The notes under the pieces are model-generated. The model was not told where the DNA came from. It ran no database searches and saw only the letters and a list, made by a program, of their open reading frames with translations. From the NCBI GenBank assembly GCA_021780075.1, contig JAJXZL010000046.1:1-64000 (forward strand): DNA of 64,000 nt, in the 5' to 3' direction. How positions within the stretch are numbered: position 1 is the stretch's first letter; each line of letters starts with the position of its first letter. Below are positions 37,048-41,749 of this stretch, piece after piece. This stretch comes from Acidobacteriota bacterium (lineage in GTDB: Bacteria > Acidobacteriota > Terriglobia > Terriglobales > Acidobacteriaceae). The position numbers and the translations under genes were made by a program.

Positions 37048-37566
37048 TTACATCGCGGCCACAAAATCGGGCAGGATGATCGCTGCGTTCTCCTGCAGCA
37101 GGCGTGTCATGCGCGCGGCCATTCCCGTATACAGGGATGCGGCGCGGAATGCATTCACGCGGACGCCTTCGCTCGCCTGGCTGAATGCATACTTCGTCAG
37201 TGCAGTCAGAACGCAAAGACGAATCTGCATGGCGTCGCTGCGCAGCGCTTCGATCAGCTCGCGGTCGACTGATTCGCAGTTGCGGTCGGCGTAGTCGGCC
37301 ATCTCAAGCATGACCCGGGCGTTCTGATACATCGCCCACAAGCCATGCGCCCCTTGCAGGCGCGTCCACGTTTCATCTGCGGTGACGTCCAGTCCCTCCT
37401 TCCAGAGGAAATGATCGCTCAGATCGTGTGCGCTCCAATCCGCTCGCAGCCGGGCTACGAGCGAATCCCACGACTGCGCATTCCGGCGCAGCACGCTTGC
37501 TCGCCACCTACCAAGGTAAATAGCCACAAACGCAATCGCGGCAATTTGAAGCAGAGGAAAAATCAT
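37048..37566 (-). CDS. Hypothetical membrane-anchored protein
   Basis: 172 aa, not recognised. N-terminal hydrophobic helix at about 2-18 followed by Arg-rich residues, so it is anchored with the bulk in the cytoplasm. The rest is helical (AHDLSDHFLWKEGLDVTADETWTRLQGAHGLWAMYQNARVMLEMADYA). Its pattern resembles short uncharacterised acidobacterial proteins. GAGGAT precedes the ATG. The upstream region contains an inverted-repeat array that may regulate it. Confidence 0.6.
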   Translation of the reverse strand: MIFPLLQIAAIAFVAIYLGRWRASVLRRNAQSWDSLVARLRADWSAHDLSDHFLWKEGLDVTADETWTRLQGAHGLWAMYQNARVMLEMADYADRNCESVDRELIEALRSDAMQIRLCVLTALTKYAFSQASEGVRVNAFRAASLYTGMAARMTRLLQENAAIILPDFVAAM

Positions 37567-38046: not shown

Positions 38047-38727
38047 TTATTGAGTCGCCTCCCGGCGATCTCGCTCATTGTGGGCAAAGCAGAACACCCA
38101 ATAGGCCAGTACACCTAGGTAACTGATCGACGCCACATAGTCGAGCGATACATATTGATGCCCAAAGGACTGATGCGTGTGCAGGATCATGACTGCAAGG
38201 TCGATCAGAAAATAAAAGCCAAGCCCGGTGGCTACCTGCAGAGCGCGTTCAGGCCAGCGGAGACCTCGAAGTGTACTCAGCCATACAAGAGCCAGCAACG
38301 ATGCAAACTGAAGTACCGAGAAGAGCTGCCTCATGCGCATGGCGAGAAAGATAGGCTGCGGTAGATCCGCGGGAAGCGTCCATCGCGCCAGGGACCAGAT
38401 CATCAGGATGGCCGTCATGAGCAGGAGGAGCAGCACACTCCGCCGGGGATCCCCCACCCGGTTATGCCGCAGAACAACCCTGCCCAACTCCACCAGAACC
38501 GCGAACTGGAACAGTGCATCTCCTGTAATGTTCAGTAGATAAAACCCGGCGTAGTCGCGCAGGAAAGAGCGCAATACCACGAAGCCCGCAATACCGCTGC
38601 AAAGACACCAGACCTGGTAAAGGAAGAAAGCGGGCAGCGTCCGGTACGCGCGCTGCGACACCAGCAAAACGAGCAGTGCTGCGTCTGCAGCTGAAGCGGC
38701 CAACAGCATGGCCGTATCCATCGTCAC
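38047..38727 (-). CDS. Integral membrane protein, paralogue of the next gene
   Basis: 226 aa with about six to seven hydrophobic helices. No enzyme motif seen. The C-terminal part LQVATGLGFYFLIDLAVMILHTHQSFG...YWVFCFAHNERDRRE is closely repeated in the gene at 38780 (LQIATGLGFYSFVSLAIAMLHSHQSIG...YWVFSFAQKEAERRE), so the two are tandem duplicates. A conserved HxHQS motif lies in a late helix. It may bind a ligand or partner. The GTG at 38727 has GGAG at 8 bases; an ATG two codons on is possible. Stands 52 bases downstream of its paralogue. Confidence 0.75.
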   Translation of the reverse strand: MTMDTAMLLAASAADAALLVLLVSQRAYRTLPAFFLYQVWCLCSGIAGFVVLRSFLRDYAGFYLLNITGDALFQFAVLVELGRVVLRHNRVGDPRRSVLLLLLMTAILMIWSLARWTLPADLPQPIFLAMRMRQLFSVLQFASLLALVWLSTLRGLRWPERALQVATGLGFYFLIDLAVMILHTHQSFGHQYVSLDYVASISYLGVLAYWVFCFAHNERDRREATQ

Positions 38728-38779: not shown

Positions 38780-39577
38780 TCAAAGCTGCGAACGCTTTCT
38801 GCCCTCTCGCGGCTCGTCCACCGGTGCGCCCGCCATCGTCAGCCGGGTGGCTTGGGCGTTCCCGGCCAGGGCCAGCAGGAAGTTCTGCATCTGGGGCGTA
38901 AACTCTCGCCGCTCCGCCTCTTTCTGCGCAAAACTGAATACCCAATACAGCAAAGAGCAGAGATAGCTGGCAAGCATAACCTGATTAAGGTAAAGATAGA
39001 GCGGGCCTATCGATTGATGCGAATGTAGCATGGCTATAGCAAGGCTCACAAAAGAATAGAAGCCTAGCCCAGTGGCTATCTGCAATTCGCGATCCCGCCA
39101 CCCGACAGAGAGCAACTGACTGCATCCGGCAAGCAAAAGAAAGAACAGGATCCTGAGAACTGAATTAGTCTGCTGAATCCGAACTATACCCTGAACTTCT
39201 GGTGCGAGGTTGGCAAATCCCTGGATGCCTGTAAAGGGCCAGATCATGGCTCCCGCTGTCACAATTAAGATTGCAACTATCATCAGGCTGCCGCGCGGGA
39301 GTGATGTGCGAAGGGGACGGAGCACAGACCAGGCCAGTTCGACCAGAACACTGAGTTCGAGGATTGAACTCAAGATCGTTTCTATAAGGTAGATGGTGAG
39401 GTAGCTTCTGCTGAAAGAATGGATTACAACATAGTTGCCGCCATCACAAATCAAATCCCACGCGCAGAAGGCAGTGAAAAACGGAAATGTTCGCCATGCG
39501 CGTCGGAAGACCAGCAGCCCCACAACAGCTGCTTGAGTCACAATTCCAGCAAACCAGAGAATATTGTCTAGACTCAC
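38780..39577 (-). CDS. Integral membrane protein, tandem paralogue
   Basis: 265 aa, about seven helices with the same layout as its neighbour, plus a cytoplasmic tail of about 45 residues rich in charge and Ala. Conserved core ELSVLVELAWSVLRP matches FAVLVELGRVVLRH in the neighbour. I choose the GTG at 39577 (MSLDNILWF), which aligns with the neighbour's start and has AAGG 9 bases upstream; a TTG 18 bases earlier is the alternative. Function unknown; such tandem families are repeated in Acidobacteriota genomes. Confidence 0.72.
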   Translation of the reverse strand: MSLDNILWFAGIVTQAAVVGLLVFRRAWRTFPFFTAFCAWDLICDGGNYVVIHSFSRSYLTIYLIETILSSILELSVLVELAWSVLRPLRTSLPRGSLMIVAILIVTAGAMIWPFTGIQGFANLAPEVQGIVRIQQTNSVLRILFFLLLAGCSQLLSVGWRDRELQIATGLGFYSFVSLAIAMLHSHQSIGPLYLYLNQVMLASYLCSLLYWVFSFAQKEAERREFTPQMQNFLLALAGNAQATRLTMAGAPVDEPREGRKRSQL

Positions 39578-39671
39578 CGTTAACACCTTGCACAACTCTA
39601 CGGCGCCATTTGAGCCAGTCTATCAGTGAATCCAGTGCAGATTATTCGAGCAGACCCGTAATGGGAATCAA

Positions 39672-39956
39672 TTATGCAATCCTGCCGACCGGAATGGGGC
39701 TCATGGGGATGGAGCTCACGACTCTGCCGACCGGAATGGGGCTCATGGGGATGGAGCTCACGACTCTGCCGACCGGAATGGGGCTCATGGGGATGGAGCT
39801 CACGACTCTGCCGACCGGAATGGGGCTCATGGGGATGGAACTCACGACTCTGCCGACCGGAATGGGGCTCATCGGGATCGTCGATGCGTAGCTGGCCGTC
39901 AACGCAAATGCAGCGCAAAAAATAACAGTGCAAACTTTAAGTGAATTCAAAGACAT
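39672..39956 (-). CDS. Secreted peptide made of 14-residue repeats
   Basis: 94 aa. Residues about 1-24 form a signal peptide (KVCTVIFCAAFALTASYA). The rest is tandem copies of the 14-residue unit IPMSPIPVGRVVSS: four complete units and shorter variants at each end. GGGGAG lies 11 bases before the ATG and the signal peptide is well formed, so this strand is the likelier coding one. The opposite strand has an open frame through the same repeat but without a signal or start site. Not recognised. It could be a structural or adhesive secreted peptide, or a precursor cut at each Arg. The repeat makes its length prone to change. Confidence 0.5.
   Translation of the reverse strand: MSLNSLKVCTVIFCAAFALTASYASTIPMSPIPVGRVVSSIPMSPIPVGRVVSSIPMSPIPVGRVVSSIPMSPIPVGRVVSSIPMSPIPVGRIA
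39682..39881. repeat. 42-bp tandem repeat (minisatellite), 4 full copies plus a partial fifth
   Basis: Units start at 39682, 39724, 39766, 39808 and 39850. The unit begins CTGCCGACCGGAATGGGGCT and ends GAGCTCACGACT. Copies are identical apart from a base change in the fourth unit and divergence in the last partial copy. The period is a multiple of 3, so it preserves frame. Confidence 0.97.
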
Positions 39957-40610
39957 TTACATACACTCCCCAGATGAAATGGATTACGCACCGAAAGACT
40001 AACCCAAAAGTGGTAGCTTGGCTACCCTAAAAGTAACTATTTCATAAATTTATTTTTGGAGGGGCAATGCGCGCTTTTGGCGATCTGGAGCAATAACGCA
40101 CTTCAGAATCTTTATTTTGCGTGGTAATAGTTTGTGCGCCACATTACGTTTCAAGCTCGCCGCTAACGGGAAAATTCAGGCACGTTTTGTGTCCTGTCTG
40201 CCCTGAAGAAGGTGCAAAGGCTGCCCTCAAGCACCCGAGATGCGCTTTCGGTGGAAGGAAAATTCTCTGGTTTTGCGTTTGTCTGCCGCTTGGGACGGCA
40301 TTCGTCGGAAACGTACTCCAACTGCCGTCCTCTCTCTCGCAAGCGTGGCGAAGAGGCAAACTCAATCCGGGCCTGTCCAAAGCGCTGCCGGGCTGGAATC
40401 GGCATACTGATATTCGGCCCAGCTGGTCCGCGGCCAGCTCTTTCCATTCGTGTCCACACTGGCCGCAGCGAAGGGCCGCGGCCGTACATTTCTGCTGCCC
40501 GTTACCTAGTCGATTACCCAACTGAAACTTTCGTGCCCTGTGCCTCGGGGGGAAAGTTAGATACTGTTGCGGACAGGCTTACAATTGGGACTTTGAAAGC
40601 AGGATGGACG
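39957..40610. other. 650-base region without a supported gene
   Basis: An open frame runs through the right part on both strands because of base composition. Neither has a start site or a domain. The PilZ gene start is placed at 40611. A leftward promoter for the repeat peptide should lie near 39970-40070, an A/T-rich stretch. Confidence 0.45.
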
Positions 40611-40973
40611 ATGGATACCTCCAAATCAAAACCTCCCTTGGAGCATCGGCGCCTTCAACCGCTGGGTTCGCGCAGGGAAGTTCGTTGCGCGGTTCGTTTT
40701 CCGCTCAGGCTTACAGCGGTGCTTTCGGCCGACGAAAAAGAGCTCGCGGCACATACGCGCAACGTCTCCGCCAACGGTGTGCTCTTTGAGATGGATAAAT
40801 CCCTGAACGTTGGCCAGGACATCAAGTTTTCCCTCCAGATGCCCCGAAGCGTATTTGGTACCCCCAGAGATGTTATGGTTCGGTGCTATGGACGTGTGGT
40901 ACGCTGCTCCATAAGCCAAGGTCTTTATTATGCTGCCGCTACCATTGATGGGTATCAGTTTGTTGAGCAGTGA
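40611..40973 (+). CDS. PilZ-domain protein
   Basis: 120 aa single PilZ domain, probable cyclic di-GMP receptor. Binding motif RREVR at residues 21-25 (RxxxR) and NVSANG at 51-56 ([D/N]xSxxG), in normal spacing. Beta-barrel strands follow (GQDIKFSLQMP, VRCYGRVVRC). The ATG at 40611 has AGGA upstream and gives the natural length; an in-frame extension to 40212 has no family support. Its stop overlaps the GTG of the next regulator frame (GTGA), suggesting the two are coupled and link c-di-GMP to transcription. Confidence 0.85.
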   Translation: MDTSKSKPPLEHRRLQPLGSRREVRCAVRFPLRLTAVLSADEKELAAHTRNVSANGVLFEMDKSLNVGQDIKFSLQMPRSVFGTPRDVMVRCYGRVVRCSISQGLYYAAATIDGYQFVEQ

Positions 40974-41002
40974 CAGCATGGCTTGGTGATCTAGTTCCGC
41001 TT

Positions 41003-41749
41003 ATGGATATCTTGGACGAATCTCCTGATGGCGAAATTCTCGACGGACCGGCGAAACCCGGGTCAACCCGCATTATTCTTGCGGATTCCCAGGCCATCTA
41101 CCGAGTCGGAATTCGCAAAATCTTTGCGCTCGAGGATGACCTTCGAGTTGTGGCACAGGCTGACTCTGTTGAAAATCTTCGTGCAGCCGTGGATCGCTAC
41201 CCCGCCGACATCGTACTCCTGGAAGGCGGCCTGTTGGCCGGTGCGCCCAATGTCGTTCCAGAGCTGCTCCGGGCTGCTCCTAATTTGAAGCTCATCGTGC
41301 AGGCGCTTGCCGCCGACGAGGCCCAGACCGTGGATCTTTATCGCCGCGGCGTTCGAGGCATCATCACCCGATCCATCTCGCCGGACCTCCTGGTAAGGTG
41401 TGTCCGCAGAATCGCGGCCGGGGAAACCTGGATAGATAACCAGTCGGTGAATTGGGTCATCGAAGCCTACCGTGCGCAGGCCGCATCCCTCATCACTCCA
41501 CGCAGCCAGCCGCGGCTCTCACCCAAGGAGATGGCCATCATCTCATGCATTTCCCAGGGCAAGCGCAACAAGGAGATCGCCTTTCAGTTGGGAACGACGG
41601 AGCAGGTCATCAAGAATTATCTCCGCAAGATATACGACAAACTGGGCGTTTCTGACCGGCTAGAGTTGGCTCTTTATTGCCTCCACCACAAGATCCTTCC
41701 GCCGGAGTCGGAAGAAGAGACTTCTGCGAAGAAGTTTGCTGCCCACTAG
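41003..41749 (+). CDS. LuxR/NarL-type regulator with degenerate (pseudo-)receiver
   Basis: 248 aa from the ATG at 41003; a GTG at 40970 overlapping the PilZ stop is an alternative. Residues about 22-140 align with a NarL receiver, but the phospho-acceptor Asp position is Glu74 (VLLEGG), the second acidic residue of the Asp pair is Ser (ADSQ), and the conserved Lys is replaced by Arg (ITRS). Phosphorylation is therefore unlikely. The C-terminal LuxR helix-turn-helix is intact (LSPKEMAIISCISQGKRNKEIAFQL...YDKLGVSDRLELALY). It is probably controlled by ligand or by partner protein, or is constitutively active; the adjacent PilZ protein is a candidate partner. Confidence 0.85.
   Translation: MDILDESPDGEILDGPAKPGSTRIILADSQAIYRVGIRKIFALEDDLRVVAQADSVENLRAAVDRYPADIVLLEGGLLAGAPNVVPELLRAAPNLKLIVQALAADEAQTVDLYRRGVRGIITRSISPDLLVRCVRRIAAGETWIDNQSVNWVIEAYRAQAASLITPRSQPRLSPKEMAIISCISQGKRNKEIAFQLGTTEQVIKNYLRKIYDKLGVSDRLELALYCLHHKILPPESEEETSAKKFAAH

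Follow-up and report, generated by a model that had tools for sequence, protein, structure and literature searches.

Is a 42-bp repeat that stays open in frame behind a signal peptide simply a minisatellite, or does it encode an exported product, and what would such a product do? The question is raised by a locus in the window, i.e. the whole stretch of 64,000 nucleotides of Acidobacteriota DNA analysed here. The gene in question (39672..39956, minus strand) encodes a precursor of 94 aa followed by a stop. Its residues 1-26 (approximate; 39879..39956, minus strand) form the signal peptide MSLNSLKVCTVIFCAAFALTASYAS, whose h-region VCTVIFCAAFALTA and c-region SYAS/T can be aligned with those of related precursors. 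The remainder is a tandem array (39675..39878, minus strand) of four perfect copies of IPMSPIPVGRVVSS and a terminal partial fifth copy of 12 residues, IPMSPIPVGRIA, confirming the signal peptide and the identical 14-residue repeats that a first-pass annotation had recognized. This array is by far the strongest of the window according to Tandem Repeats Finder (42-bp unit, 4.7 copies, 98 % matches, score 380), and its four full copies differ by synonymous changes only. Around 9 nt 5' of the ATG lies a G-rich, ribosome-binding-site-like stretch, CTGGGGAG. A genome search showed the gene to be single in its own genome, while orthologues are found at the equivalent locus in relatives. Since the period is divisible by three, the ORFs on the plus strand over the array are by-products.

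Several other matches were discarded. Scanning genome contigs with the precursor protein gave L013 as sole match, a glycine-zipper-type protein from a Pseudomonadota MAG that shares RVVSSIPM by chance. Matches to ribosomal L2 in Pfam and NCBIfam (E 0.019 and 1e-4, far below cut-off) and to PglX in PADLOC (E 0.018) were spurious, being matches to the repeats, and a match in genome G039 contained five stops and overlay the open frame of another gene on the opposite strand.

Judged by sequence comparison, the repeat gene does not stand alone as a minisatellite but belongs to an unnamed family of bacterial genes. A direct match to the repeat protein was found in 12 of the 80 genomes of the genus (kinship code g1, within family f1), e.g. 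with the units IPMSPFPTAHVAAA, AIPMGPYPTKVVAS, MPVSPYPTAVASA, IPMSPYPTSGGVVAS and IPMSPFPTKTAA. Because repeats defeat homology searches, we used the constant neighbour of the peptide gene, mem271 (38780..39595, minus strand), as the anchor for finding further loci. It encodes a predicted seven-transmembrane (7TM) membrane protein (N-out/C-in), our putative receptor, and has a homologue in 71/80 genus genomes and in 40/42 of the good ones. Upstream of the mem271 orthologues, a signal-peptide gene with a Pro-rich peptide was present in 58 of 64 assessable genus loci, i.e. 50 arrays detected automatically and eight loci recognized only by eye, whose arrays were masked, broken, single-copy or filtered. 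Most loci carry tandem repeats, each species having its own unit of 12-24 aa, usually with the core xPxxPxP, in 2 to 19 copies, although the genomes, one per species, are often drafts in which arrays are possibly collapsed or broken. Units are often unrecognizable by sequence, e.g. SPVNPLPPFPPNGGSLALT, GPMTPAPTPPGPTFA (19 copies), EPIWPLPPAVKTAAA and SPVIVPPLPPTVPSANQTVADM; a further unit, ASPVIVCPPLTVAA, was located on a separate contig. In four loci there is a single copy, and the chain ends 10-19 residues past the signal peptide with LAAIPIIPMPPPLH, LAALPIIPIPPGN, ATASPVLPPPLPPATGIAV or NASPIIPAPLPPVGHIADAV directly before the stop, start codons and signal-peptide ends having been set by eye or by simple rules. 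Several contigs terminate within the array, as expected because repeats break draft assemblies, and a few 7TM homologues, mostly second copies, have no peptide gene. Since more than 50 related genomes show the same architecture at orthologous loci, a chance origin is excluded.

Judging from their substitution pattern, the copies within an array are kept identical by purifying selection. Across 50 arrays, pS was 0.301 and pN 0.022 (pN/pS 0.07); in G060, for example, 19 copies occur in 18 DNA versions that all encode one peptide. As silent differences persist and the peptide hardly changes, the copies cannot owe their identity to recent slippage alone. The differences being mostly silent, selection holds the peptide constant across the copies of an array, and between species the peptide is replaced. 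A frame control on 37 arrays points in the same direction: the annotated frame gave a ratio of 0.08 and was the lowest of the frames in 35/37 arrays, four of the five other frames gave ratios of 2-5, and the antisense frame sharing the wobble position gave 0.18. The annotation had named conservation of the plus-strand frame as an outcome that would speak against the gene; it is the minus frame that is under selection.

Which part of the unit matters is best seen in other species. In the G005 array (L087), nine invariant cores GPMLPTPTPPGG are separated by alternating linker types, i.e. GFTSSTSAQ, SYIGH and GMVATVAA. Invariant cores with varying linkers were also found in G086 (APITPFPP) and G074 (YPAYPMPQFPKL), and overall the core was constant or much less variable than the linker in G005, G086, G074, G006 and G001b. 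Transferred from these species, the window unit would divide into the core IPMSPIPVG and the linker RVVSS. In an alignment of the cores made by hand on the first Pro (position 2 used for alignment), Pro is found at position 5 in 53/68 and at position 7 in 61/68 units. The peptides are very Pro-rich and nearly uncharged, and no anchor or sorting motif was seen in the repeat proteins. The L087 array offers a useful natural separation of core from linker.

Regarding processing, the Arg in each window unit had been proposed as a cleavage site. The family does not support this, as Lys or Arg is present in only 30 of 62 units and none is dibasic; the linkers are Ala/Ser-rich instead. Small residues occupy position -1 in 46/62 and -3 in 41/62 units, but also -2 in 42/62, and the pattern is therefore only suggestive of an AxA-like cleavage within the linkers. 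No processing protease gene adjoins the peptide gene at the locus.

The partner protein shows an inside-outside asymmetry on its predicted topology. The confident AlphaFold2 model of mem271 (42 homologues; pLDDT 89.5, pTM 0.81) comprises seven long helices and a C-terminal helix, and the distribution of Lys/Arg, i.e. 3, 3, 1 and 8 in loops 1, 3, 5 and the C-terminal tail and none in loops 2, 4 and 6, indicates an N-out/C-in topology. Column entropy reaches 2.93, 2.71 and 2.53 bits in the outer loops and 1.53, 1.35 and 0.66 bits in the inner loops, with the same outer-variable, inner-conserved gradient in the helix halves, helix 4 excepted. Outer loops of membrane proteins are often variable without ligand binding. 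The invariant residues, e.g. R165, E166, Q168, T171 and G172, lie mostly on the inner side, which argues against a periplasmic protease function. In the genus, the mean pairwise difference is 50 % for mem271 and 27 % for ORF172, the next gene, so that mem271 diverges about twice as fast. The distance between cores tracks the 7TM distance beyond the ORF172 distance (partial r 0.24, p 0.005, n 23; genus only: r 0.32, p 0.02, n 17), a partial Mantel result that is suggestive only, the correlation being weak and this type of test anti-conservative.

With its predicted seven helices, the N terminus outside, a variable outer and a conserved inner face, mem271 resembles microbial rhodopsins and GPCRs. 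It differs from them in that hmmsearch found no homologue among PDB sequences, Pfam and NCBIfam held no family for it, and Foldseek returned no fold match with E below 0.001 (best E 0.018, TM mostly 0.35-0.5), the non-significant resemblances being mainly to GPCRs and microbial rhodopsins. As these matches are not significant, the receptor role proposed for mem271 rests on topology and co-occurrence.

Within the genus, the syntenic order is AKR, ORF172, (mem226), mem271, repeat gene, PilZ, LuxR-type regulator, MarR, YceI and MFS. Directly downstream of mem271, mem226 (38047..38727, minus strand) is a paralogue of it without a peptide gene of its own that occurs in only part of the genomes; duplicates of the 7TM gene recur in other genus genomes as well. 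ORF172 (37048..37566, minus strand), the downstream member of the cluster, encodes a small protein in which a membrane helix at the N terminus is joined by a domain predicted to be all-helical (model pLDDT 84). The model had no fold match, and hmmscan of 26 homologues yielded sub-threshold matches only; with neither a family nor a fold match, a 'TPR-like' label once considered for ORF172 was dropped. The conserved cluster, i.e. the 7TM gene and ORF172, with AKR, PilZ, the LuxR-type regulator, MarR, YceI and MFS as further genus neighbours, includes no modification enzyme, so that the first-pass annotation was right on this point as far as tested. It had overlooked the two constant partners encoded just downstream, i.e. 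the 7TM protein and the small anchored protein. PADLOC found nothing for the partner proteins. At 40604-41749, the PilZ-domain gene overlaps the gene of the LuxR-type response regulator; both are oriented divergently to the peptide gene and keep their synteny in the genus as well as in g30 and g29, and the pair could be a downstream regulator.

A conserved DNA block, GTTACTTTTAGGGTAGCCAAGCTACCACTTTTGGGTTAGTCTTTC (39993..40039, minus strand), lies upstream of the precursor gene. Its genus consensus of 40 nt, TTACTTTTGTKGTAG-N10-CNNTTTGGGTTASTCT, was recovered at a distance of 74-104 nt to the start codon in 34 of 45 loci of the genus, allowing no more than 6 mismatches in 29 positions; shuffled sequences had a minimum of 11 mismatches to it. 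The motif has no other site in the genome, where a 19-mer of the block is unique at up to 3 mismatches. A sigma-70 scan returned no promoter, and the scan's one 'terminator' is the inverted repeat GGTAGC-CAA-GCTACC within the element of this genome. The block is probably the promoter/operator of the precursor gene. It also holds two similar CTTTTnGGGT boxes.

Taken together, the best explanation, to which we assign a probability of about 0.52, is a multi-copy exported peptide precursor that probably delivers a signal specific to the species and perceived by the 7TM protein. The signal peptide with identical repeated cores, the purifying selection, the conserved peptide-7TM-ORF172 unit and the replacement of the peptide from species to species at a fixed locus make a strong sequence-based case for the precursor itself; from these we infer the receptor role, the processing and the signalling. 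The precursor of a short Pro-rich peptide (core IPMSPIPVG in the window) would be exported by Sec and, after removal of the signal peptide, cut in its Ala/Ser/Val-rich linkers, releasing several identical peptides of around 9-14 residues. The site of action of these peptides would lie beyond the inner membrane: the 7TM protein may bind them with its variable periplasmic face and relay the signal through its conserved cytoplasmic face, possibly with ORF172. Repetition would yield more peptide per precursor, and hypervariability would restrict the signal to one species or lineage. The multi-core precursor that had been considered before is thus supported by the pN/pS ratio, by cores that are invariant where linkers vary and by the single-copy orthologues.

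The alpha-factor of yeast is read by a 7TM receptor. It is tempting, if tentative, to speculate that the bacterial locus is the functional counterpart of this pair, i.e. a peptide communication system in which exported, hypervariable multi-copy peptides are sensed from the periplasm by a dedicated and co-diversifying family of 7TM receptors that has no fused kinase and signals inward together with a small membrane-anchored protein. A literature search in open-access papers found no published description of the family, and the 7TM partner would make the system something new if signalling were proved. Should the reading hold, the peptide code of each species in a whole bacterial family would be legible in the genome sequence itself, at one fixed locus. 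Peptide communication could then be tested directly with cheap synthetic 9-14-mers, and the natural variation among dozens of peptide/7TM pairs would be at hand for studying the joint change of ligand and receptor.

Hypervariable, species-specific peptides beside a fast-evolving membrane protein would fit toxin and immunity equally well as signal and receptor. The locus might therefore encode a bacteriocin-like multi-copy antimicrobial peptide, against which the 7TM protein would confer self-immunity or protect the target. Bacteriocin loci are typically patchy, however, while this one sits in constant synteny and is present in almost all of the genus, as judged by the 7TM homologue in the good genomes. 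The low charge and high Pro content of the peptides and the empty PADLOC result for the partners also count against an antimicrobial, and we regard it as unlikely.

Slightly less likely still is a structural or envelope protein, in which the uncut Pro-rich chain would serve as a periplasmic spacer or surface fibre whose length is tuned by copy number. The Pro content and the range of 2 to 19 copies are compatible with an extended spacer, but the mature peptides of the single-copy orthologues comprise only about 10-19 residues, which disfavours a structural protein and weakens the earlier suggestion of one at the cell surface. Nor does a spacer agree with a core strictly conserved between copies while the linkers vary in sequence and length, or with the lack of a visible anchor or sorting motif. 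Rather improbable, too, is a role within one cell, the repeat chain or pieces of it serving the 7TM protein as ligand or subunit (e.g. in a regulated transporter or a sensor of envelope stress) and not as an intercellular signal: the constant peptide-7TM-ORF172 cluster and the variable periplasmic face suit this well, but the species-specific turnover of a peptide kept in many identical copies would be left unexplained. Finally, a non-functional minisatellite, grown by slippage and open in frame by accident, is suggested by the near-identical 42-bp units of this genome but hardly credible, being refuted by the frame control and at odds with the low pN/pS ratio, with arrays that continue the frame of a signal peptide at every locus that includes the 5' end and with the conserved upstream element.

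The proposed signal precursor has its closest functional analogues in the tandem pheromone propeptides that Rap and further RRNPPA systems of Bacillota employ, and in the KEX2-processed repeat proteins (KEPs) of fungi. Among RRNPPA quorum-sensing systems, propeptides in which the pheromone is duplicated in tandem are known for the Phr peptides of Rap systems and the partners of NprR and AimR (PMC9765709, PMC11343458, PMC5199041), including a propeptide survey (PMC9765709) and studies of their evolution by duplication (PMC5199041) and of the extracellular proteolytic maturation of duplicated propeptides (PMC11343458). Shared with our family are the Sec-exported propeptide with one or several copies of a short peptide, a likeness of architecture only, the location beside a (here putative) receptor gene and the fast turnover of specificity. 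In contrast, the RRNPPA peptide is imported to meet a cytosolic TPR receptor in Bacillota, whereas the constant neighbours here are an inner-membrane 7TM protein and ORF172; moreover, repeats are the rule in our family, reaching 19 copies of a unit whose core is rich in Pro. KEPs and yeast alpha-factor precursors (PMC9769878, PMC2515848) likewise line up identical cores, separated by variable spacers, behind a signal peptide, but the present family is bacterial, has no dibasic KEX2 sites (0/62 units) and showed no sequence relationship to them. Membership in either group thus fails for lack of a TPR receptor and of dibasic sites, respectively. Multi-core RiPP precursors also hold repeated cores in one precursor; here, by contrast, the conserved neighbourhood contains no modification enzyme, and there is a cleavable Sec-type signal and no separate leader.

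Beyond the genus, mem271 homologues were detected in 55 of 399 genomes of the class and, with a profile, in 27 of 396 genomes of the phylum, in both cases restricted to family f1. ORF172 adjoins mem271 in several genera, following it in g30, g23, g29, g19 and g35, and the PilZ, LuxR, MarR and YceI genes are not everywhere alongside the peptide-7TM module. Upstream of most inspected 7TM homologues in other genera lies a short exported peptide, either repeated, as in g30, g23, g29, g35 and g37, or single, as in g19 with copies such as MNKSIRNLALTVAVLFSTAAPMFANMSGGNPHPLVASVALSLGDYASIVISVLGL and a gap of around 25 nt to the 7TM gene. The g37 unit GPGDPNPLGH bridges GGNPHP of g19 and GPGTPVPIPQ of g1. 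Peptides of g19 (L132, L134-L136, L153) carry a conserved hydrophobic C-terminal segment, SLGDYASIVISVFGL, after a GG-x-PxP motif, and the mature form of these single-copy peptides may therefore differ. Some single-copy peptides of g20, g26 and g19 (L165, L166, L167, L173) contain two Cys, e.g. GGGGPMPVCDPADPKCPPVMAPPQ, and are possibly disulfide-closed variants.
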